Of a stretch of DNA of 9,441 nt, positions 1-9,441 are shown one piece after another. The position numbers and the translations under genes were made by a program. The stretch is from Thermococci archaeon. Lineage in GTDB: Archaea; Methanobacteriota_B; Thermococci; Thermococcales; Thermococcaceae. The stretch covers positions 1 to 9,441 of the forward strand of contig QMUI01000020.1 in NCBI GenBank assembly GCA_003660485.1, in the 5' to 3' direction. The notes beneath the pieces are model-generated. The model was not told the DNA's origin. It did no database searches and saw nothing but the letters and a program-made list of their open reading frames with translations. Within the stretch, counting starts at the first letter, position 1. Each line of letters begins with the position of its first letter.

Positions 1-128
1 AGGAGAACGGTCTTTCCGGCCCCGCTGGGGCCCAGGATTATGAAGTGCTCCTTCTCTTTAACGTCAAATGTCACATCCCTCAGCTTAAACTCCTTCCAGT
101 CCTTACTGATCCCTTCAACCTTGAGCAT
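1..128 (-). CDS. wtpC: Tungstate/molybdate ABC transporter ATP-binding subunit WtpC, N-terminal part (gene runs off the left edge)
   Basis: This is the nucleotide-binding subunit of the WtpABC importer; in the family, two copies hydrolyse ATP on the cytoplasmic face to drive oxyanion uptake through WtpB. Only 42 codons are in the window. They read [11 protein letters not shown] and then a Walker A motif GPSGAGKT (about residues 33-40), the usual position for ABC importer ATPases. The start at 126-128 is fixed by a strong Shine-Dalgarno sequence, GGTGATCC, one base upstream. That sequence contains the stop codon of the TOPRIM gene before it, so translation is probably coupled. Assignment to Wtp rather than a generic ABC ATPase rests on wtpB and wtpA lying upstream on the same strand and on the N-terminal sequence style. 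The signature motif, Walker B and any C-terminal regulatory domain are outside the window. Confidence 0.88.
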
Positions 129-129
129 T

Positions 130-138
130 GGATCACCC
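130..138 (-). promoter_or_regulatory. Shine-Dalgarno of wtpC, overlapping the stop codon of the TOPRIM gene
   Basis: On the minus strand GGGTGATCC precedes the wtpC ATG by one base; its GGTGATCC part is a perfect complement to the archaeal 16S 3' end. The TGA at 133-135 inside it is the stop codon of the upstream gene. Ribosomes finishing that gene therefore sit on the wtpC initiation site, which predicts translational coupling. Confidence 0.7.
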
Positions 139-846
139 GGTTATTTTATCTAAAAACTCTCTTAGTCCAGTTTCTTTAAGAAACTCTTCAATGACCTTAG
201 GATTTCTTCTGAGTATGTCTTCAATGAGTTTTCTGTAGAGTCCTGACATTGAGTCTCCATCGTATTCCTTTGCAATCGCGAGAACATGCATAATATCTTT
301 AGGCTTGAGTCTTCTCCCAGTGTCTTCTTTAAGCTGATTTAAAGAACGCTGGAACCTTGATAGCGTGCTCTCTTTTTCTGCAAGTAGTGTGAGCAGTAGT
401 TCAAGCTCTCTCTTTTTCTCGATAACTGGGTTCTCAATCTCAACATTACCAAGGCCGAAAGGTATAATTTCGGTGTCATTAATCCATAGAGAAGTTCCTT
501 TCACAATTGGGTGAAATTGTCTAAGAGAACTCTTGGCCCACCCTATTATATCAAGATTTGTGTCCATATCCCTCAACAAGCCAATTCTATGGAGTTTTAC
601 TTTGTGGAAATTGGCCCATGAGAGCACATTTCTAAGGACGTCCTTCATTCTGTATTTGTCTTGAGCGTTTATCAGGACTATAACAGTATTATCTTTCCTG
701 AATGTTACATATGTTAAATTAAGCCCCGTTTTTCCGAGCCCCTCAATCTCGACTTTCTCTTTCCTGAAGCCGTAGATCTTTTCTATCAGAGTTTCAAAGA
801 CGGTCCTGTCTGTCTGGCCCTCCACCAATAATACATTAACCTCCAT
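133..846 (-). CDS. TOPRIM-domain protein (DUF3226/OLD-type nuclease-like), partner of the adjacent ATPase
   Basis: This 237-residue protein starts [20 protein letters not shown], which matches the first TOPRIM motif: hydrophobic strand, catalytic Glu at residue 9, Asp at 13. A second acidic motif, LLRDMD, with Asp 93 and Asp 95, fits the DxD metal-binding motif. The rest (about 140-237) looks helical and charged. TOPRIM domains of this sort occur in OLD nucleases, and as separate subunits beside an ATPase in systems such as PARIS (AriB). The gene follows the ATPase gene with 3 bases between stop and start, and AGGGGATGA across that stop is a plausible ribosome binding site. Visible base composition is more A+T-rich than in the wtp genes. 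Metal-dependent nuclease activity and a defence role are inferences; the exact family (DUF3226 or a relative) is not certain. Confidence 0.72.
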
Positions 847-849
847 AAT

Positions 850-1926
850 TCATCCCCTTAAATCAATTCCGAGAATCTCTCTGAGCTCTTTGGCGTTTTC
901 AAATGTCTCTATACTGTGCACGAGTTCCCCCTTTTCCTGCTTTATATAAATGATCCTCCCATTGACACCCTCTTCTATTCCATATTCTAGAATTGTATCA
1001 ATAAACTCAAGGCTATGGGTTGTTAAAAAAACTTGAACGTTATTTTCTTTTGCTCCCTTTATTAAAGCCCTCACCATTACTTCGAGTGATCTTGGATGGT
1101 GGAATGCTTCGGCAGAATCTATCAAGAGGTATCCATTTTTTGTTGAAGAGACGAGAAATGCTATCATAGAGAGGAACTTGAATCCATCCCCCATACTATA
1201 GTAGGGGATGCTTTTGGGGACATGTTTTATGTCTACATACATTAGAACGCTTCCATCTTCGGGAACAGGGCTAAGCCCCTCGACTTCTGGATATGCCTCT
1301 TGGATAATTTCAAGTGCCTTATAATAGGACTTGACCTTAAACGCCTTTGAAAAAACTTCTTCAATGAACCCAGGCGTGTTCATATCGTAAGGTGTTACAA
1401 ACTCAACAGGAAATTCGATTGGGTTCAATTCATCATTAGATGTTGTTATTGTTATTGCCCCATTCTCTGAAATTAAAATCAAAGCTCCACGGCTAAATGA
1501 ACCTGCTTTAATCTGAACCGGTACAATCTCAACAGATTCTGAAAGCATGTTCTTGAGGGTTTCGCTGTCAAATTTGATACCAAATTCTTTTTCAATGGCC
1601 TGCGGGAGATAGCTGGGGTACATAAATCTCGCGGAAAAGGGAGTATTGTTGGTAACGAATGTTAACTCTATTGGGGTCGAAGGGGTATTAAACAAAGAGT
1701 ACACCGATGCACGTTTTAACCATCCCCTCCACTTTAACACCCGATTTAGAATTTCCTTCAGTACCGATGTATCCTGATTTACGGCTCCTAAGGCAATTGA
1801 AATTGCTTCAAGAATAGATGATTTTCCAACATTATTTCTTCCTACGATAACGTTAACCTGGCCTAAATCGGTGAGACGTAATTCTGAGATGCCCCTAAAA
1901 TTCTTAATGTGGAGAGATGTTATCAT
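850..1926 (-). CDS. OLD/AAA_15-like ABC-ATPase-fold protein, putative defence-type ATPase
   Basis: This 358-residue protein has the SMC/ABC-type ATPase layout seen in OLD, AriA and related AAA_15/AAA_21 proteins. The N-terminus ITSLHIKNFRGI is the typical first strand ('xxFRxI'). Walker A is GRNNVGKSS at 29-37, a signature-like SMGDG lies at 244-248, a Walker B strand YLLID ends at Asp 270, and a switch-histidine motif TTHS lies at 302-305. Between Walker A and the signature is an insert of about 190 residues. The Walker B Asp is followed by Ser-Ala-Glu instead of the usual Glu-x-Glu, so the common catalytic Glu is missing. The start is preceded by GAGGT about 10 bases upstream, and a TATA-like element lies just beyond. 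It sits between wtpB and the TOPRIM gene and lacks its own TOPRIM, so the pair looks like a split OLD system. Defence function is inferred from family resemblance. Confidence 0.78.
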   Translation of the reverse strand: MITSLHIKNFRGISELRLTDLGQVNVIVGRNNVGKSSILEAISIALGAVNQDTSVLKEILNRVLKWRGWLKRASVYSLFNTPSTPIELTFVTNNTPFSARFMYPSYLPQAIEKEFGIKFDSETLKNMLSESVEIVPVQIKAGSFSRGALILISENGAITITTSNDELNPIEFPVEFVTPYDMNTPGFIEEVFSKAFKVKSYYKALEIIQEAYPEVEGLSPVPEDGSVLMYVDIKHVPKSIPYYSMGDGFKFLSMIAFLVSSTKNGYLLIDSAEAFHHPRSLEVMVRALIKGAKENNVQVFLTTHSLEFIDTILEYGIEEGVNGRIIYIKQEKGELVHSIETFENAKELREILGIDLRG

Positions 1927-1954
1927 GCCTATCTCTACCTCATAGGGAAGAACT

Positions 1955-1966
1955 CCTTTTTATAAT
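1955..1966 (-). promoter_or_regulatory. Probable TATA box for the ATPase/TOPRIM/wtpC unit
   Basis: On the minus strand the sequence reads AATTATAAAAAGG, overlapping the last codons of wtpB. Its centre is about 35 bases before the ATG at 1926, which would give transcription start near 1935 and a short leader containing GAGGT. No T-run terminator is seen after wtpB, so read-through from wtpB is also possible. Confidence 0.4.
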
Positions 1967-2706
1967 TTAATTTTTCTCCCAACCAGCCACCTCAGGATAA
2001 CGAATATCGTAAGGCTCATCGCGATCAGTATCACCGAGATCGGCCTTGAAGCCCTTAGGCCATAGTTGTTGAAGTACTCCATCACCAAAATCTGGGCCGT
2101 CTTTGGATAGTAAGCAACTATCAAAATTGCACCGACCTCGCTTATAGCCCTAGCCCACGCCATTATCGCTCCACTGGCTATCGAGGGAAACGCTATTGGG
2201 AGCGTCACCGAAAAGAAGGCCCTGAGCTGAGAGGCACCCAAAGTTCTCGCTACCTGCTCGAGCTTCTCGTCCACAGCCAAGAATCCATCCCTCGCGGCAT
2301 TTATCGCGAAGGGAGCGGAAACAAACAGCATAGCAGCAACTATTCCCTTATAGCTGTCCAGAATTGCGGTGGAGAAAGTCGTGAGGAGCATTATACCAAC
2401 GACCGAGTGGGGAATCACGATGGGGACGTCAACTATGGCCTGCACTAGGCTTTTGCCCCTGAAATCCTTCCTCGCCAGCACGTAACCTAGGGGGACGCCA
2501 AACAGGACGGACAAGATCGCTGTAGCTGTAGCAGTTAGAACCGAATTCTTTAGGGCATCTAAGACGAGGGGATCGTGGAGGGTTTTTATAAGCATCTTGT
2601 AGTCATAAGCTTGCTCTGCAAATATCACAATTAGCGGGAGGGCTATGAAGACTATTAGGAAGCTCCCGATTGCCGCGAAGAAGTAAATGGTGTAGTCCTT
2701 CCTCAT
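1960..2706 (-). CDS. wtpB: Tungstate/molybdate ABC transporter permease WtpB
   Basis: This 248-residue integral membrane protein forms the channel of the tungstate importer. Hydrophobic segments are visible at about 8-30, 56-78, 88-112, 119-136, 173-198 and 222-242, consistent with a six-helix ModB/WtpB-type permease. The cytoplasmic coupling loop (EAA motif) is seen as [10 protein letters not shown] at about 150-159, ending in TLPIAFPSI; this contacts the WtpC ATPase. The start at 2706 is supported by a T-rich TATA element centred 26 bases upstream, which predicts a leaderless mRNA; there is no strong Shine-Dalgarno. In P. furiosus, as I recall, wtpA, wtpB and wtpC have consecutive locus numbers; here wtpB has foreign genes on both sides. 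The full length and intact motifs suggest it still works. Confidence 0.93.
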
Positions 2707-2727
2707 CTCTCTTGAAATCTTAACTGA

Positions 2728-2736
2728 TTTAAAAAA
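2728..2736 (-). promoter_or_regulatory. TATA box of wtpB, leaderless arrangement
   Basis: The minus strand reads TTTTTTAAATC, centred near 2732, 26 bases upstream of the wtpB ATG. That is the archaeal TATA-to-start distance and so predicts a transcript beginning at or next to the ATG. The same T-run lies just downstream of the methyltransferase relic and could also act as its terminator. Confidence 0.5.
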
Positions 2737-2738
2737 CG

Positions 2739-3095
2739 TTATTGTTTAATGATAATGTTTAACTTTGGGAGGAGCCTCTCCCTCGTCTTCATGAACTCCT
2801 CGTATTTCTCTCCCCAGTACTCTAAAAGTTCCATCTCCTCTAGCTCGGTCAGCCTCTTCCACAGCGGGAGCATTAACATATAGCAGAAAAGCCCTGGGAT
2901 ATTGGAAAAGAAGAGGGCTATCCCGAAGCCCATGAATATGAATGCCGAATAAATGGGTGCCTAACGTACCTATAAAAGCCCCGCGATGTGCATTGCCCGA
3001 GATAATCCATCAACTGGCACGTGAAAGATGGCTGATACTGGGATTAAAAGGAAGAACACCGTGAACACTATCTTCCTGAACTTCGAGGACTCCAT
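2739..3095 (-). pseudogene. Decayed isoprenylcysteine carboxyl methyltransferase (ICMT)-like membrane protein gene
   Basis: Three pieces of one gene can be read on the minus strand. An ATG at 3095 opens 41 codons with a hydrophobic helix (KIVFTVFFLLIPVSAIFHV), ending at TAG 2970-2972. In a shifted frame comes YRYVRHP, the hallmark Arg-His-Pro motif of the ICMT/PEMT methyltransferase family. Back in the first frame after one missing base comes IYSAFIFMGFGIALFF, a membrane helix, and then the typical tail ELLEYWGEKYEEFMKT ending at 2739. There is a second in-frame TAG at 2961-2963. The total of about 118 codons is well below the family's usual 150-220, so the middle part before YRYVRHP appears deleted. 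The start lies 9 bases after the stop of the upstream ATPase gene. An open stretch from ATG 2933 (64 codons) lacks the RHP motif and is unlikely to be active. Confidence 0.75.
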
Positions 3096-3104
3096 GTTCC
3101 CTAA

Positions 3105-4412
3105 TTATCTTGGGATCTTAAATAGCCAGCGCCAGAGAGGGACAAAGTAAACTCTTTTTCCGTTGATTTCCTTAACTCCTTCCTCCTCCCAGGTTATGAT
3201 GGTTAGATTAGGGCAGTTTAAAACTCTTGATGCCCTCAACAGCGCCCTAATTTCCCTCTCTCGGGTTTGGGGTTCGTCAACCGCATAACTGACCTGTATT
3301 AGCTCTTTCACCCTTCCACCTAGTGAAACTACAAAGTCAACCTCTCCTCTCTCATCTCCCCAGTAGTATATTTCCAGCCTTGGCTCGAAGTAGTGCTTCC
3401 TCCGCAGGAGCTCTATGGCAACGATGTTCTCTATTCTATAACCGACGTCCCTAGCTCCGAGGGCCGTTGCAAAGCCAACGTCCGCTATGTAGAGCTTCGG
3501 CTGGCTTCTCAATGATTCGATCTCGCTTGGATGATACCTTCTAACAGGGAGTACAAAACCGATGTCCTCAAGGTAGGTGAGGTACTCGGCAAGCGTCGGC
3601 CTACTAACCTTAATACCAGTTGAAGAAACAAGGGAGTGGAGCTTCCGAACTGAGACCTTTCTCGCGAAGTTTCTGGTCAGAACTCTTATTAGGGCTTTGA
3701 GAGCTGAGACCTTTTCTATCCCATAGCGCTCAACGAGATCCCTGTAAACTATCAGGTCGAGGTACTCCTGCAGTGTTCTGATCTTCAGCGGAGGTGAGTA
3801 ATCAACGATCCCTGGGAAACCACCGTATTCAACGTACTCCTCGAGGAGACGTAGCAGAATTCCCCTTCTCCTCTCGGTCAGAGGCTTTTCTATCTCGAAG
3901 CCTTTGAAGGTTAAGAACTCCCGGAAAGACAGTGGAAACAGTTGAAAGCTCAGAGTCCTCCCCCGAAGGGAAGTCGCTATTTCACGGGAGAGTAGCTCTG
4001 AGGACGAACCCGTTATAAAGATCCTTGCCCTCTTCCTCTCAAGCAGGCGCCTCACGAACCTCTCCCACCCCTCAACGGCCTGAACCTCGTCGAGGAAGAG
4101 GTACATCATATCGGCATCGGGGTTGTGCTTGTAATAGAGCTGGACTATCGTCGAGAGATCTTTGGCGGAGAGTCCAGCAAGCCTCTCGTCCTCGAAGTTC
4201 ACGTAGAAAATTCGCTCGATTGGCAGGCCCTCATCGATAAGCCTTTTCATTGCAAGGTATAGGAGGTACGTTTTTCCAGTTCTCCTGAGGCCATAAACTG
4301 AGACTGCAACGTCAACATCTAAGGGAAGGCTTAACTCCCTTTCCTTAACTTCTGGAATTCCGAACTCGTGGAACTCACTGATGACTTCCTCCAGCGCCTC
4401 AATTATGGTCAT
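3105..4412 (-). CDS. AAA ATPase with AAA_14 and DUF4143 domains
   Basis: This 435-residue protein belongs to a widespread archaeal and bacterial ATPase family (AAA_14 plus DUF4143) with no settled function; links to mobile elements and toxin-like roles have been suggested for it. Walker A is GLRRTGKT at 41-48, Walker B LFLDEV at 105-110, and sensor 1 ITGSSS at 133-138 is followed by the family's SLRGR at 148-152. A winged-helix-like middle part spans about 230-290. The C-terminal DUF4143 holds EVDFVV (357-362) and IQVSY (372-376), the layout of a PD-(D/E)XK-like fold with the usual Lys position changed to Gln. It lies between wtpA and wtpB and is set apart by a T-run terminator upstream. No Shine-Dalgarno precedes the ATG, but a TATA box is centred 26 bases upstream inside an inverted repeat, so it is probably leaderless and separately controlled. 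All motifs are intact. Confidence 0.88.
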   Translation of the reverse strand: MTIIEALEEVISEFHEFGIPEVKERELSLPLDVDVAVSVYGLRRTGKTYLLYLAMKRLIDEGLPIERIFYVNFEDERLAGLSAKDLSTIVQLYYKHNPDADMMYLFLDEVQAVEGWERFVRRLLERKRARIFITGSSSELLSREIATSLRGRTLSFQLFPLSFREFLTFKGFEIEKPLTERRRGILLRLLEEYVEYGGFPGIVDYSPPLKIRTLQEYLDLIVYRDLVERYGIEKVSALKALIRVLTRNFARKVSVRKLHSLVSSTGIKVSRPTLAEYLTYLEDIGFVLPVRRYHPSEIESLRSQPKLYIADVGFATALGARDVGYRIENIVAIELLRRKHYFEPRLEIYYWGDERGEVDFVVSLGGRVKELIQVSYAVDEPQTREREIRALLRASRVLNCPNLTIITWEEEGVKEINGKRVYFVPLWRWLFKIPR

Positions 4413-4414
4413 AT

Positions 4415-4465
4415 GGTAAACTTAACTTATCAAAATTTAAAGATTTTGGTCAACTAAACTTTACC
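4415..4465 (-). promoter_or_regulatory. TATA box framed by an imperfect inverted repeat, promoter of the DUF4143 ATPase
   Basis: The TATA-like palindrome TTTAAA is at 4436-4441, centred about 26 bases from the ATG at 4412. Two 14-base arms flank it: GGTAAACTTAACTT at 4415-4428, and at 4452-4465 a sequence whose reverse complement is GGTAAAGTTTAGTT. They agree at 11 of 14 positions, with the centre of symmetry close to the TATA centre. Such an arrangement could be an operator where a dimeric repressor blocks TBP/TFB. Whether a regulator binds is unknown. Confidence 0.5.
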
Positions 4466-4474
4466 AAATTTCGC

Positions 4475-4480
4475 AAAAAA
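4475..4480 (-). terminator. T-run terminator after wtpA
   Basis: On the minus strand CCTTTTTTGCG lies about 15 bases after the wtpA stop codon. A run of T without a hairpin is the usual intrinsic terminator for archaeal RNA polymerase. It would separate wtpA from the ATPase gene and from wtpB. Confidence 0.5.
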
Positions 4481-4495
4481 GGTAAGATAGAAGCC

Positions 4496-5539
<1,044 letters not shown>

Positions 5540-5560
5540 CTAGTGGAGTGGTAGATCTTT

Positions 5561-5569
5561 TAACTTAAA
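5561..5569 (-). promoter_or_regulatory. Possible TATA box of wtpA
   Basis: The minus strand reads GTTTAAGTTAAAAG about 35 bases before the wtpA ATG, which would place the transcript start near 5539. The sequence is only a moderate TATA match. A second AT-rich candidate (TTTAATAA, about 5591-5599) lies further upstream. The divergent region 5531-5670 is strongly A+T-rich. Confidence 0.35.
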
Positions 5570-5622
5570 CATTTCGTTAATTTTTCCAAATTATTAAATA
5601 GTTTTGTTTAACTAAAAATTTT

Positions 5623-5640
5623 CGAAGGAAACGTTTTAAT
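5623..5640 (+). promoter_or_regulatory. BRE/TATA promoter of the cpgS-2PGK operon
   Basis: A purine-rich BRE (CGAAGGAAACG, 5623-5633) directly precedes TTTTAAT (5634-5640). The TATA centre predicts transcription start near 5663, leaving a leader of about 8 bases before the ATG at 5671. GGGGGATT before the ATG partly matches a Shine-Dalgarno sequence. Confidence 0.45.
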
Positions 5641-5670
5641 CCTCGTGGAATACTTAAATGGGGGATTCTC

Positions 5671-6963
5671 ATGAGGCTAGCCCTTATAGATGGAGAGCAC
5701 TATCCAGATGTTAACAGGTGGGCCCTTGATAAAATAAGCCCCTGCTGTGCGGTCTTCGTTGGGGGAATTGAGAAGATAGGGGGGATAGAGGACGTTGAAA
5801 GAGTTCTCGGCGTGAAGCTCTACCATGACTCGGATATATTTAAGGCATTGGAGAGGGCTTTATCAGAAAATCACGTTGAAGAAGTTATAGACTTAAGTGA
5901 TGATCCCGTTCTAACTCCAGAACTCAGATTTAGAATAGCTTCATTCCTCTTAAGGAGAGGCGTAAGCTACATAGGTGCGGACTTCCAATTCAAACCAAAA
6001 GAGTGGCTTAAGATTGATATCCCCTCAATAAATATCATAGGGACAGGAAAGAGGGTGGGGAAAACTTCCGTTGGGGCCTTTGTAGGCAGGACATTGAAGC
6101 ATCTGTACAGGGTCGTGATAGTCACAATGGGCAGAGGAGGGCCTGAAAAGCCCGAGATTATAAGGGGTGACCTCATGGAGATAACCCCTGAGTTCCTTCT
6201 AAAGGTGGCTGAGGAGGGGAAGCATGCCGCCTCCGACCACTTTGAAGATGCCTTAATGGCAGGAGTTGCCACAGTTGGTTGTAGAAGGTGCGGAGGAGGG
6301 CTGGCTGGCTTCTCCTTCTTTGACGTTATAGAAGAGGGAATAGAAGTTGCGAAATCCCTAAATCCCGACTTAATAATATTCGAGGGCTCAGGGGCCACGT
6401 TCGCCAACGTTCTCTCTGAGGGCTTTATAACGGTCGTGAGCGCTAAGCAGGGAGTATCTAAAGTTAGGGATTATTTTGGACCCTTCAGGATATCTTTGGC
6501 TGATATAATTGTAATCACGATGGCTGACTCAGTTGAGGAGAATGAGCTTAAGAAGCTCCTTAAAACTATAGAGGGGATAAATCCTTCGGCTGACGTCCAC
6601 ATCACAAGGTTCGCCCCGAGGCTTATTGGTGATGTTGAGGGCAAAGCGATAGTCGTCACAACATCTCCCGAGTCAGCGAGGAAAGTTGCTGAGGAACTTA
6701 GGAAGGAAGGCGTTGACATCGTTGGCTATTCGGGTAGCTTGGCTAACAGGAAAAAGCTGAGAGAAGAGCTTTCAAAATTCCAGTACGACACCACTATAGT
6801 GGAACTCAAGGCCGGGGCGGTTGATGTGGTGGTCAAGGACGCTTTAAGCAGGGGTAAGAGGGTTGTCTTCCTCGACAACGAGCCAAGGAACATCGACGGC
6901 AAAGACTTAGGCAAAGCCGTTAAGGAGCTCGCGAGGAGGGTTATAAATGATAAGGGTGGTTGA
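5671..6963 (+). CDS. cpgS: Cyclic 2,3-diphosphoglycerate synthetase
   Basis: The enzyme uses ATP to close the intramolecular phosphoanhydride of 2,3-bisphosphoglycerate, giving cyclic 2,3-diphosphoglycerate (cDPG). In Methanothermus and other methanogens this is a major cytoplasmic solute and thermoprotectant. The 430 residues match the family from memory. There is an N-terminal domain of about 115 residues starting [13 protein letters not shown], then a P-loop [10 protein letters not shown] at 124-133. A glycine-rich [13 protein letters not shown] lies at 152-164, CRRCGGG at 204-210, and [11 protein letters not shown] at 237-247. The family is usually about 430-460 residues, so it is full length. 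The next gene begins 17 bases before its end, and 2-phosphoglycerate kinase there supplies its substrate, which strongly supports the call. cDPG is not a solute usually reported for Pyrococcus, so the product pool or its purpose may differ. Confidence 0.9.
6933..6939 (+). promoter_or_regulatory. Ribosome binding site that sets the 2PGK start
   Basis: GAGGAGG inside the end of cpgS lies 7 bases before the ATG at 6947. It is a strong match to the archaeal Shine-Dalgarno and supports a start that overlaps cpgS by 17 bases. Confidence 0.65.
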
Positions 6964-7852
6964 GAAGGGAGGCAGAGTCTCGCTCCCCTTCTCAAGGGGA
7001 ATACTCACAAGGTCAATAACCTCCGTTGGAATAGACGTGGACCTAGCGTACACCATAGCGATAGAGGTTCAAGAAGAGCTGAGGAGAAAGGGAAAAACCC
7101 TAGTTACTAAGGATGAGATAAGGAGGTTGACATATCAAAAGCTCGTTGAGAAGGGTTTCACGGAAGAGGCGAGGAGGTATCTCTTCTGGAGGAGATTCCG
7201 AAAGATGAAGATACCTCTAATAATCCTCCTGGGTGGACCTACTGGAGTTGGAAAGTCTACCATAGCTACTGAACTCGCTTTTAGGTTGGGAATAAGGAGT
7301 GTCATAGGAACTGATACTATAAGGGAAGTCCTAAGGAAGATAATTACCCCCGAACTACTACCCACGATTCACACATCGACATTCTTGGCTTGGAAAGAGC
7401 TTAGGGGAACGATAGAGGGATCCCCAGTCATAGCAGGATTTGAAAGCCAGGTGAGTGCAGTTTCTGTTGGAATAAACGCCGTTATTCAAAGGGCTAGGAG
7501 AGAAGGGCTAAACGCAATAATTGAAGGCATTCACGTCGTTCCTGGGTTCGTTGACATAGATCACGAGATGACTTTCATGTACATGATAGTTGCAAGGAGC
7601 AGGGAAGAGCTTGAGGCGAGGTTCTACGAAAGGACTAGGTACAGCAAGAGGCCCGCGGAGTACTACATAGCCCACATTGAAGAAATTTTGGAGATTCAAA
7701 GCTACCTCATAGAGAGGGCGAAGAGCTTTGGGATACCGATCATAGAAAACATAGAACTTGAGGAAACCGTTGGGAGGATAATGCAGGACATAATGGAGAA
7801 AACAGTAGAGATAATGAAAAGGAAGGGGCTTGACATGCTAGAGGAACCTTAA
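6947..7852 (+). CDS. 2-phosphoglycerate kinase (ATP-cone plus P-loop kinase)
   Basis: The enzyme phosphorylates 2-phosphoglycerate with ATP to 2,3-bisphosphoglycerate, the first step of cDPG synthesis. The 301 residues have two parts. Residues 1-88 are an ATP-cone-like domain: [20 protein letters not shown], followed by helices ending in YLFWRRFRK. Residues 89-301 are a P-loop kinase domain with [10 protein letters not shown] at 96-105, [10 protein letters not shown] at 121-130 and [12 protein letters not shown] around 165-176. Archaeal 2PGKs are about 300 residues with this same architecture, so it is complete. The start is set by a strong ribosome binding site inside cpgS. The 3' end overlaps the convergent birA gene by 15 bases, leaving no room for a separate terminator. 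The ATP-cone suggests nucleotide feedback control, by analogy with ribonucleotide reductase. Confidence 0.9.
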
Positions 7853-8545
7853 GGACACGTCACCGTAGATAATCTTCCTTATTTCTCCGTTCCCAAGCCT
7901 TAAGACGAGTCTTCCGTCCTCATCTATATCCTCAGCAATTCCAATGACCTCTCCATTTCCAAGAACTTTAACTGGAACGTTAAGTATCATGAGCTCCCTT
8001 GCAAGTTCCACTATAGTCCCTGGGGACTTCAAGTAAACCTCGTACAGCTCGTCGAGATTCTCTAATAGGGTTTTGAAGACGTAAATTAGACTAACTTCCT
8101 TACCCAGAACATCCTTCACGGCTATTCCGTTTTCCGGGGCGTCGTTGTTCACATTTATTCCGATGCCTAGAATGACTTTCTCCCCAACCTTCTCGGTTAG
8201 AATTCCTGATATTTTCCTGAAGTTCACTAGAACGTCATTTGGCCACTTAATCCTTCCGGGGATTGATAATTCTTCAAGTGTTCTAACTACCCCTATGGCC
8301 CCTAGGAAAACTATCTTTGGAATGTCCTGGGGCGCAACCTTCGGCTTTAAAACTACTGAAAGCCATAAGCCCCCTTCTGGAGAAATCCATTTTCTGTTGA
8401 GTCTTCCCCTTCCTCTTGTCTGCCTGTCGGCGACTACAACTGTTCCTTCTTCAACATCGAGGGATTTTGCAACATCATTGGTAGAAGAAATTTCCTGGTA
8501 GTAGATTACCTTTTTGCCAATTATAGAGGTTTTCAGGCCAAGCAT
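7838..8545 (-). CDS. birA: Biotin--[acetyl-CoA carboxylase] ligase, monofunctional
   Basis: The enzyme activates biotin as biotinyl-5'-AMP and attaches it to a lysine of a biotin carrier domain, in Thermococcales probably the carrier subunit of the methylmalonyl-CoA/oxaloacetate decarboxylase type. The 235 residues lack the N-terminal HTH found in bacterial BirA repressors, so it is a class I, non-regulatory ligase. The biotinyl-AMP loop GRGRLNRKW is at 45-53, with KWPNDV at 100-105, SGILTE at 113-118 and GIGINVN at 127-133. A small C-terminal SH3-like domain covers about 188-235. Length and sequence resemble the structurally known P. horikoshii enzyme. A palindromic TATA box is centred 25-26 bases before the ATG, and there is no Shine-Dalgarno, which predicts a leaderless mRNA. 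Confidence 0.95.
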
Positions 8546-8560
8546 ATCTTAACCTAACCG

Positions 8561-8575
8561 CAAGGTTTATAAAAA
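8561..8575. promoter_or_regulatory. Palindromic TATA box between birA and tRNA-Phe, possibly bidirectional
   Basis: TTTATAAA (8566-8573) reads the same on both strands. To the right it lies about 33 bases before the tRNA-Phe gene, with CGCAAGG as a good BRE. To the left it lies about 25 bases before the birA ATG. No other good TATA box is seen for either gene in the 57 bases between them. Confidence 0.6.
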
Positions 8576-8602
8576 CCATACTTCACCATAACTTTCGAGG
8601 GT

Positions 8603-8679
8603 GGGGCGGTAGCTCAGCCTGGGAGAGCACCGGACTGAAGATCCGGGTGTCGGGGGTTCAAATCCCCCCCGCCCCACCA
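8603..8679 (+). tRNA. tRNA-Phe (anticodon GAA)
   Basis: A full cloverleaf can be drawn. Acceptor GGGGCGG pairs with CCGCCCC, followed by discriminator A and an encoded CCA. The D-arm is GCTC/GAGC. The anticodon stem CCGGA/TCCGG holds loop CTGAAGA with anticodon GAA. The T-arm is GGGGG TTCAAAT CCCCC. There is no intron. It is first in a tandem with tRNA-Gly, 8 bases apart, and is probably co-transcribed from the TATA box at 8566. Confidence 0.97.
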
Positions 8680-8687
8680 GTGTTTGT

Positions 8688-8765
8688 GCGGTGGTAGTCT
8701 AGCCTGGTCTAGGACGCCGGCCTTCCGAGCCGGCGACCCGGGTTCAAATCCCGGCCACCGCACCA
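8688..8765 (+). tRNA. tRNA-Gly (anticodon TCC)
   Basis: Acceptor GCGGTGG pairs with CCACCGC, followed by discriminator A and an encoded CCA. The anticodon stem CCGGC/GCCGG holds loop CTTCCGA with anticodon TCC. The T-arm is CCGGG TTCAAAT CCCGG. The D-stem GTC/GAC has an enlarged loop. There is no intron. It has no promoter of its own in the 8-base gap after tRNA-Phe. Confidence 0.97.
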
Positions 8766-8768
8766 TTC

Positions 8769-8785
8769 TTCTAAAAATTTTAGAA
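8769..8785. repeat. Perfect short palindrome just after tRNA-Gly
   Basis: TTCTAAAA-A-TTTTAGAA is an exact inverted repeat with a one-base centre, 3 bases after the CCA. It could fold in the tRNA precursor trailer and mark RNase Z processing or termination, or be a protein site. The stem is A/T-rich and weak. Confidence 0.4.
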
Positions 8786-8804
8786 ACCCTTCCTGGAGTA
8801 GCTG

Positions 8805-8812
8805 TTTTTCTT
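8805..8812 (+). terminator. T-run terminator of the tRNA pair
   Basis: TTTTTCTT lies about 40 bases after tRNA-Gly. It is the first T-rich run downstream on the plus strand and is suited to archaeal termination. Confidence 0.4.
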
Positions 8813-9250
8813 AGATTCCCTGATCCTTCCTCAAATTTGTTAATCCCCTGCTCTTTGGTCTTTGGAGGGTTTTAGTAATATGTTGTGAAAATATCACTAA
8901 ATGTTCAAATTTTGGTCATATTATGTAACGAATTTTCTTCAAATTTACCTGTTAAATCAGTAGATATCTTGGTTATATACTGACGCACGATGTATTCTGA
9001 GTTTTTGGCATGATAAAACATGGGAGAGAAGTAGCGGATAAGAGAAGGTCTCAGACCCTTTTGGAGTTTATGAGGTAGTTTAACTGTTGAATATTCTGGA
9101 GCTGTATCTCCTCTATACATTGAATTACAAGGTTTGTAGCCCGAGCTTAGATTTGCCTTATTGAGTAGGATAAATACCCTTCATCGAAAGGCTTATAATA
9201 TTGGGGCTTTCTTAGGAGATATTGAGAGAATCGCACGAAAAATCGCGCCT
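8813..9250 (+). promoter_or_regulatory. CRISPR leader region (gene-free stretch before the array)
   Basis: No convincing gene is seen here; short open frames lack family features. The A+T-rich stretch ends directly at the first repeat and is on the side expected for the leader, given repeat orientation. Pyrococcal leaders run to some hundreds of bases, so most of this may be leader, but its left boundary is not visible. It holds three copies of TCAAATTT (8831, 8905, 8939), a GGTCT-C-AGACC inverted repeat (9047-9057), and two copies of AATCGC just before the array (9230 and 9241). It ends in a clear promoter. Confidence 0.65.
9184..9200 (+). promoter_or_regulatory. BRE/TATA promoter for the pre-crRNA
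   Basis: TCGAAAGG (a strong BRE) is followed by CTTATAATA. The TATA centre near 9196 predicts transcription start near 9222, about 29 bases before the first repeat. This fits a leader-driven precursor transcript on the plus strand. Confidence 0.65.
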
Positions 9251-9441
9251 GTTCCAATAAGACTAAAAGAGAATTGAAAGAGGATTTTATTGCCTCAATG
9301 ATTAACCTCTCCGCTTCCCGAACGTGTTCCAATAAGACTAAAAGAGAATTGAAAGATCACGAGGTTCGGCGTTATAATGTCTATCGTCTCTGTTGCTGGT
9401 TCCAATAAGACTAAAAGAGAATTGAAAGACAGACATTACAC
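9251..9441 (+). CRISPR. CRISPR array, first three repeats (continues beyond the right edge)
   Basis: Three identical 30-base repeats lie at 9251-9280, 9326-9355 and 9399-9428. They start GTTCCAATAAG and end GAATTGAAAG. The repeat is close to that of P. furiosus, seemingly differing by one base in the middle. The last eight bases ATTGAAAG equal the 5' tag of mature crRNAs in that species, so Cas6 would cut 8 bases before each spacer and the array is read on the plus strand. Spacer 1 is 9281-9325 (45 bases) and spacer 2 is 9356-9398 (43 bases), both longer than the common 36-39. Spacer 3 is cut off after 13 bases. These are leader-proximal, so they should be the newest acquisitions. No cas gene is in the window. 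Confidence 0.97.

Follow-up and report, generated by a model that had tools for sequence, protein, structure and literature searches.

An OLD-type ATPase and TOPRIM gene pair exchanged at one junction of the tungstate operon in Thermococcaceae, a candidate split immune module

Among the closest described systems, PARIS has, according to passages of PMC12409363, a sensor ATPase that retains a TOPRIM tRNase, which a phage protein then sets free. According to passages of PMC12796447, GajA of Gabija binds ATP and has likely lost its hydrolysis, and Cran1 is the first archaeal OLD described, a cell-cycle protein, apparently not antiviral, which could not be deleted, is conserved across Sulfolobales, and retained ATPase activity after replacement of either Walker B residue. 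The candidate defence family PDC-M38 goes back to a preprint by Payne et al. 2024, as cited in a passage of PMC12988326. Archaeal OLD-family proteins are otherwise almost unstudied, and the gene pair described here behaves as an exchangeable allele series at one junction. A literature search (preprints and most subscription papers lay outside it) found no paper on DUF3226, PDC-M38, PH0155 or PH0156, and none joining wtpB, tungstate and Pyrococcus.

The window, by which we mean the whole stretch of DNA analysed, comprises 9,441 nt from a Thermococci archaeon (Thermococcaceae; assembly GCA_003660485.1, contig QMUI01000020.1, positions 1-9,441). The initial annotation had described two adjacent ORFs encoding an ATPase and a TOPRIM protein, and their positions were borne out, both on the minus strand. 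The motifs it had read in the ATPase (Walker A GRNNVGKSS at residues 29-37, SMGDG at 244-248, TTHS at 302-305) and the acidic residues Glu9, Asp93 and Asp95 of the TOPRIM protein are present as claimed, and the CRISPR repeats it had seen 7 kb from the pair were located at 9251-9428 of the window. It had missed the setting between wtpB and wtpC as well as the absent Walker B Glu. The features are as follows.

1-128, minus strand: wtpC, encoding the ATP-binding subunit of the tungstate ABC transporter; the window holds only its first 42 codons
129-132, minus strand: junction from the TOPRIM stop to the wtpC start, 4 nt
133-846, minus strand: TOPRIM/DUF3226 protein, 237 aa, second gene of the pair, from ORF and profiles
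850-1926, minus strand: first gene of the pair, coding for a 358-aa OLD-like ABC ATPase (AAA_15/AAA_21), from ORF and profiles
1096-1131, minus strand: Walker B segment LLIDSAEAFHHP of the ATPase, residues 266-277 by residue numbering, Ser replacing the catalytic Glu
1402-1701, minus strand: hypervariable ATPase segment, residues 76-175, candidate recognition part
1927-1959, minus strand: junction from wtpB to the ATPase, lacking the TTTAA element of non-Pyrococcus loci, but A/T-rich where wtpB stops
1960-2706, minus strand: wtpB, permease of the tungstate ABC transporter (NF040839 at 359.7 bits, cut-off 340)
4496-5530, minus strand: wtpA, tungstate-binding protein, upstream of the pair (TIGR03730, 416.8 bits against 242.75)

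The complete wtpC of a same-species genome (G010) matched NF040840 with 606 bits (cut-off 440), and the pair interrupts the tungstate operon, being placed between wtpB and wtpC. Only 3 nt (847-849) separate its two genes, and chance ORFs were ruled out because both genes recur side by side in 16/16 mapped genomes. A TATA-like TTTAA precedes the ATPase in 11 of the 13 scanned loci, namely all scanned non-Pyrococcus ones, and lies 29-39 nt ahead of the listed ATPase start in ten of them (the start listed for G083 is too early), which suggests separate expression of the pair; the element was absent in six Pyrococcus loci, two of them scanned and the rest read by eye. Within the window no defence genes were recognised next to the pair, and its ORFs included no helicase or reverse transcriptase.

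The window ATPase matched Pfam AAA_15 at 1.6e-22, and an alignment of 15 ATPases of the pair showed the Walker A, signature and H-loop expected of the OLD family, with G29, N31, N32, K35, S36, G246, G248, T303, H304 and S305 invariant and the ABC signature of the window protein reading PYYSMGDGFK. The catalytic Walker B Glu of that family was not found in the pair's ATPases, being replaced by Ser, Leu or Thr in every readable member (Ser in 16 and Leu in 1 of 17 ATPases) and kept in 83/83 readable outside relatives (among 120 listed of 340). Since Cran1 Walker B mutants were still active, the absent Glu may not mean lost hydrolysis here. When the ATPase was divided into four segments, residues 76-175 had the lowest identity in 119/120 pairwise comparisons of members, averaging 22.5% versus 58-62% for the other segments. 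An AlphaFold model of the window ATPase (mean pLDDT 89.4) gave structure matches of SMC/Rad50/PtuA/GajA type, the Foldseek rows comprising retron PtuA, Rad50, SMC and OLD. No PARIS entry stood among the Foldseek matches listed for this protein, which carries no weight against PARIS.

The partner protein matched DUF3226 (PF11536) at 4.3e-15 (56.5 bits, cut-off 27), a profile reached by 22/22 TOPRIM members at E<=0.01, and OLD-like_TOPRIM at 1.4e-4 (22.8 bits, just below the cut-off of 23.2), reached at E<=0.01 by 9/22 relatives. Glu9, Asp93 and Asp95 were kept in all 16 wtp-embedded TOPRIM proteins. Pyrococcus horikoshii PH0156, solved as PDB 2p62, matched the window protein over its full length (5e-46), and a model of the latter superposed on 2p62 with a TM of 0.93 at 35% identity. 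The TOPRIM protein of G006 has the very sequence of the P. horikoshii record, and it matched 2p62 end to end; PH0156 thus belongs to the same family and sits at the same wtp junction, but represents a divergent allele, its partner ATPase being 38% identical to that of the window. A TOPRIM fold assignment is supported at the sequence level. The pair is an archaeal OLD lineage split over two genes, in which the Walker B Glu has been lost and the TOPRIM acids have been retained.

Occurrence was surveyed in 94 Thermococcaceae genomes. The TOPRIM query found 16 close relatives at E<=1e-30, the window's own included, its many distant matches being mostly a different protein of ~340 aa, and gene maps of the window and 15 further loci placed 16/16 pairs between wtpB and wtpC, in one gene order and across four genera. 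With the ATPase query, 19/94 genomes matched at E<=1e-15. The gene lay directly after wtpB in 17/94, with wtpC visible beyond it in 16 and the contig of the 17th (G063) ending inside the pair's second gene; G022 carries a lone ATPase just after wtpC and is the 18th carrier, and G076 has a partial match only, elsewhere than wtp. In each of the 18 Thermococcaceae carriers found, the ATPase is tied to wtp, and where a wtpB match (E<=1e-60) was lacking, in 17 genomes, none had it at E<=1e-15.

The wtp regions came from 74 genomes. Besides the window's own, they were those of 72 further genomes, out of the 77 with a wtpB match, and that of G082, in which only wtpC matched; four genomes with split or cut contigs were left out. 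Among 72 measured wtpB-wtpC junctions 16 were occupied, spanning 1605-1882 nt and always holding the pair, and 56 were empty, a pattern that does not fit a Wtp subunit, which would be present in every wtp operon. No cargo other than the pair was seen in these 72 junctions. When the 56 loci with empty junctions were searched by tblastn, the lone ATPase of G022 was the only gene of the pair to turn up. A general insertion hotspot at wtpB-wtpC was not supported, since all 16 measured insertions are this pair. The inserts profiled between wtpA and wtpB, a subset of those there, are other genes (MFS and DUF72, PEMT-like, AAA_14). In 54/56 empty junctions wtpB and wtpC overlap by 2-14 nt (wtpC start from alignment), the two without overlap being both from Pyrococcus, G009 (+4) and G004 (+19). 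The wtpB stop of the occupied loci G077, G055 and G001 still reads ATGCTTGAGG, which in empty relatives is the overlapping wtpC start, and G023, also occupied, keeps part of it; the remnant is most readily explained by the pair having inserted into an empty site in those loci. Decay was seen as well, as a split ATPase in G001 and the lone ATPase of G022. A second pair lies outside wtp in G000, G007 and G010, with an ATPase 32-33% identical and a DUF3226 partner (5.9e-9 in G000), and the partial ATPase matches outside wtp in G076 and G077 belong to other pairs, the gene that follows matching DUF3226 at 7e-4 in G077, below the cut-off, and showing no DUF3226 in G076.

A quick tree of wtpB and wtpC from 72 genomes was used, together with genus labels, as a stand-in for a species tree. 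Presence of the pair changes at least 11 times on it, all 11 forced by starred branches, versus a mean of 14.6-14.7 changes for shuffled presence (4/500 shuffles as low as the observed value) and 4 for genus labels. Across 13 genomes the mean pairwise identity was 78% for wtpB, 73% for wtpC, 52% for the ATPase and 49% for the TOPRIM protein, and identities correlated at 0.68 between wtpB and wtpC, 0.14 between ATPase and wtpB, 0.28 between TOPRIM and wtpB, and 0.37 between ATPase and TOPRIM. The pair thus diverges far more than its wtp flanks and is decoupled from them. The clearest case is G017 versus G051, in which the bulk of wtpB is 97-100% identical (end windows 90 and 89%), followed by ~1.55 kb at 40-62% with one window at 74%, and again by 94-100% from the middle of the TOPRIM gene to some 600 nt into wtpC; the middle of the ATPase retains 7% protein identity. 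Here a divergent allele has replaced the stretch as a cassette inside near-identical flanks, a swap.

Parts of the pair have also been mixed, as the TOPRIM protein of G085 is 69.9% identical to that of the window and its ATPase 44.6%, the corresponding values for G043 being 39.5% and 63.1%. Between the Pyrococcus genomes G010 and G007, ~900 nt over the ATPase 3' end and the TOPRIM gene are 99-100% identical, with adjoining windows at 84% and 95%, which reads as an exchange tract, although parts of wtpC further on are at 98-99% too. Between G000 and G007 the TOPRIM dS is 0 and that of ATPase and wtpB 0.26-0.28, and across genera the TOPRIM similarity of G017 and G085 is 81-85% versus 71-76% for the flanks. 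In between-species comparisons with usable dS, dN/dS was 0.13-0.26 for the pair and 0-0.09 for full-length wtpA-C (the window's 42 wtpC codons gave 0.26 in one comparison), which indicates constraint on the pair's proteins, looser than on the transporter's; the own-species couple G000-G010 had too few changes for dN/dS. Positive selection on the TOPRIM gene of the nearest genomes was considered and dropped, the few replacement changes and no silent ones being too few to count. The changes on the wtp tree, the exchanges between relatives and the ATGCTTGAGG remnants weaken strictly vertical inheritance of the pair. The initial annotation had held that a mobile defence role would be unlikely if the pair stood at the same place throughout Thermococcales under strong purifying selection; the place is indeed the same in all carriers found, yet most genomes are without the pair. 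Being patchy, diverging, decaying and exchanged, it fits a mobile, conflict-type locus better than a housekeeping one.

Outside Thermococcaceae, a 58-kb plasmid of Methanocaldococcus jannaschii carries the same pair, annotated as two AAA genes and a DUF3226 gene, with an ATPase that is 42.5% identical, contains LLIDSAEAFHHP and is broken by an in-frame stop. Its neighbours are NurA, an ATP-binding protein and MCM, and no wtp gene is annotated in the 13 kb around it. A plasmid search with the TOPRIM protein found this record alone. P0027-P0030, P0036 and P0141 resemble the plasmid copy (66-89% in the pieces compared), and a TOPRIM relative at 70% (P0124) is named Archaeoglobus sp. In the window's phylum 18/115 genomes matched the ATPase alignment at 1e-30, all Thermococcaceae. 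A wide scan of one genome per species (84,980 species) with two short ATPase peptide patterns, from which 80 of 117 loci were kept, gave five close loci (E 3e-80 or lower), all Thermococcaceae, and otherwise distant ones (E 3e-20 or weaker). Many of the latter encode an ATPase of ~700 aa with a CEGxxD protein next to it, and a few have weak wtp-like matches (24-30%) nearby. Having missed known Thermococcaceae carriers, the scan is non-exhaustive and does not prove that the pair is absent elsewhere. Origin from a phage or virus was rejected, as the TOPRIM search of the phage collection gave no match and the virus scan with the ATPase two short ones.

Our best explanation, which we hold to be only just on the probable side, is that the pair is a split-OLD-type immune module, with a sensor ATPase and a TOPRIM effector, exchanged through its wtp flanks. 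The ABC-type ATPase would serve as sensor and switch, and the TOPRIM protein as a predicted nucleic-acid-cutting effector. The ATPase would bind ATP and form a clamp slow at, or incapable of, hydrolysis, in which the variable residues 76-175 may recognise an invader's product; recognition would unleash the TOPRIM subunit on tRNA or DNA, and the infected cell would be stopped. Taken together with the PARIS and GajA precedents, the conserved TOPRIM acids, the absent Walker B Glu and the hypervariable segment make it seem likeliest that the ATPase is a sensor with ATP bound, whose recognition surface changes between alleles, coupled to a TOPRIM effector. Incoming alleles with wtpB and wtpC sequence would recombine with the resident operon, and homologous recombination through these genes would land every transfer at one junction. 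Flank recombination of this kind, which the swap shows for one couple, is the simplest account of the constant address. The operon would be a docking site and not necessarily a functional partner, with no tungstate function required, though the pair may have one. We put defence itself at about one half, because of the wtp tie in all 18 carriers, the lack of recognised defence genes beside the pair in the window, the precedent of Cran1 as a cell-cycle protein, the ambiguity of the Walker B Glu loss, and a TOPRIM fold assigned from sequence. A rather unlikely elaboration is that the module guards the tungstate transporter, its divergent, hydrolysis-defective OLD alleles, swapped as whole cassettes, sensing an invader or competitor by its attack on the transporter; the junction would be the single docking site of an archaeal immune receptor, and immunity and metal supply would then be inherited as one unit. 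If the pair does act in immunity, the tungstate operon would be where exchangeable immune modules dock, which raises the question of defence parked in a metabolic operon without an island, and island-based discovery would miss such cases. The locus further offers a natural swap with matched flanks, a crystal structure of one subunit (2p62), and culturable relatives both with and without the pair.

The position inside the operon admits other readings. A regulator or quality-control device of tungstate uptake, in which the pair would tune wtp expression or transporter turnover and hence keep a fixed place, is unlikely. It would account for the position of the ATPase, immediately after wtpB in 17 genomes and after wtpC in one more, for the 0/17 genomes with the ATPase when a wtpB match is lacking, for the tight spacing on the wtp strand, and for the six Pyrococcus loci without TTTAA before the ATPase. 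However, 56/72 measured operons do without the pair, ATPase and TOPRIM identity hardly follows that of wtpB or wtpC, one allele has been replaced wholesale (G017/G051), a plasmid copy has no annotated wtp gene in 13 kb, and TTTAA in 11/13 loci suggests separate expression. A single fixed junction that is either empty or occupied by the pair, and never by other cargo, would also suit a homing-like selfish element, the predicted nuclease cutting empty wtpB-wtpC alleles and being copied in by repair from an occupied donor; consistent with it, ATGCTTGAGG is exact in G077, G055 and G001 and partial in G023, indicating that the overlap state came first there, and decay is seen (the split ATPase of G001, the broken one on the M. 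jannaschii plasmid, the lone one of G022). We judge this improbable, since the most variable part sits in the ATPase, which is unexpected for a reader of a single DNA site, the M. jannaschii copy lies outside any wtp site, and OLD-type TOPRIM nucleases are not known to act in homing.

A cellular pair serving chromosome maintenance like Cran1, passed down vertically from the ancestor of the family and lost many times, is improbable. The fixed place in four genera, purifying selection and the archaeal OLD precedent outside defence, as given in passages of PMC12796447, speak for it, and the junctions of G009 (+4) and G004 (+19) could be loss scars, but the remnant of the empty overlap suggests insertion in the three or four occupied loci that keep it, alleles have been swapped between close relatives, and between-genus TOPRIM similarity exceeds that of the flanks (G017-G085).

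Compared with known systems, the reading of the locus as a split, OLD-like ATPase and TOPRIM pair stands, and the PARIS membership entertained by the initial annotation does not. Profile searches against PARIS, OLD and DUF3226 models, as it had proposed, supported the OLD-like and DUF3226 assignments and not PARIS. PARIS (AriA/AriB, class 4 OLD) likewise has ATPase and TOPRIM on separate adjacent genes, but AriA matched the window ATPase at 1.8e-23, behind PDC-M38A (4.3e-43) and AbiLi (6.5e-38), and AriB did not match the window TOPRIM protein at E<=1 (1/22 relatives at 0.0022), and membership was rejected on these profiles. AbiL resembles the pair in its ATPase, AbiLi covering residues 1-337 of the window protein, and differs in its partner, which here is a DUF3226 protein; AbiLii did not match it at E<=1 (1/22 at 0.0093), and AbiL was likewise rejected. 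Gabija GajA and the fused OLD classes 1-3 also couple an ABC ATPase to TOPRIM, whereas here the domains are on two genes, flanked by wtpB and wtpC; Gabija was excluded because it has a fused ATPase-TOPRIM protein plus a UvrD-like GajB, and no helicase stands among the window's ORFs. MAD3 and MAD4 of MADS belong to a larger methylation-linked gene set. The mad4 model was matched by 12/22 TOPRIM proteins (best 9.3e-20), but MAD3 reached 45.8 bits versus a cut-off of 420, no further MADS gene was found among 9 profiled window ORFs, and MADS membership was rejected. Cran1 (class 5 OLD, Sulfolobales) shares with the pair its standing as an archaeal OLD family protein, yet is a fused, single protein, whereas the pair is split, patchy and exchanged.

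The nearest named candidate defence family, as judged by profiles, is PADLOC PDC-M38, which resembles the pair in that its models cover an ATPase (A) together with a small partner protein (B). PDC-M38A models were matched by 15/15 ATPases scanned (best 3.8e-43), as were the AbiLi, AriA and Old models, so that the profiles place the ATPase closest to known and candidate anti-phage ATPases. PDC-M38B matched the window TOPRIM protein weakly (2.3e-4, 18.6 bits, judged without PADLOC's own thresholds and rules), and the commonest PDC-M38B model gave a weak match in 14/22 TOPRIM proteins (best 3.1e-6; best of any M38B 2.2e-7). The pair differs from PDC-M38 in these weak M38B matches, in its lost Walker B Glu and in its place within the wtp operon. 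The main text of PMC12988326 has no mention of TOPRIM or PARIS and a single Thermococc match, in the reference list. By profile, then, the pair is a lineage outside OLD classes 1-5 as these appear in passages of PMC12988326, PMC12796447, PMC10568477 and PMC12409363, split like class 4 and distinct from AriA/AriB.

Besides the ATPase-TOPRIM pair at the wtpB-wtpC junction, the tungstate operon carries further genes in the gap between wtpA and wtpB, listed here for the window and for fetched loci (L) of other genomes:

Window 3105-4412 (-), AAA_14/DUF4143 ATPase gene, inserted between wtpA and wtpB
Window 2739-2933 (-), 64-aa ORF
L037:5303-5743, longer counterpart of this ORF (146 aa), at the equivalent position in genome G005
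L048:4765-6695, L049:4522-6383 and L068:5157-7024, opposite strand, MFS and DUF72 insert, Pyrococcus

In DNA windows compared between G010, of the same species as the window's genome, and its relative G007, the AAA_14/DUF4143 gene showed 97-100% identity, versus 89-100% for wtpA and 83-98% for wtpB, thus on sequence grounds this gene, like the ATPase-TOPRIM pair, may have been recently exchanged. The 64-aa ORF appears to be what is left of a gene for a PEMT/ICMT-type methyltransferase. The same gap in three Pyrococcus genomes is occupied by genes for an MFS transporter and a DUF72 protein, which lie on the opposite strand. At the end of the window, tRNA-Phe and tRNA-Gly genes precede CRISPR repeats:

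Window 9251-9428 (+), CRISPR-DR6, three repeats

Related pairs were also identified outside the wtp operon:

L069:1860-3584 (contig G000:C18), second ATPase and DUF3226 pair, in the window's own genome
L241:6001-7733, broken same-clade copy of the ATPase-TOPRIM pair, on the 58-kb plasmid of Methanocaldococcus jannaschii

The former, present also in two relatives (L100 and L101), adjoins another AAA_14-like gene, and its ATPase keeps the Walker B glutamate, as the motif reads CEEPENYQHP. In the plasmid copy, the ATPase is split by a stop.

A longer DUF3226 protein (~340 aa) recurs across Thermococcaceae (L050-L054 and most non-Pyrococcus genomes searched), and its gene adjoins a HAD hydrolase gene in L050. 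The nine Pyrococcus genomes gave no match to it at E<=1e-3. It has the EGKTD and DxD motifs in common with the shorter DUF3226 protein in five of the six ORFs inspected, the sixth being a wrongly picked ORF.
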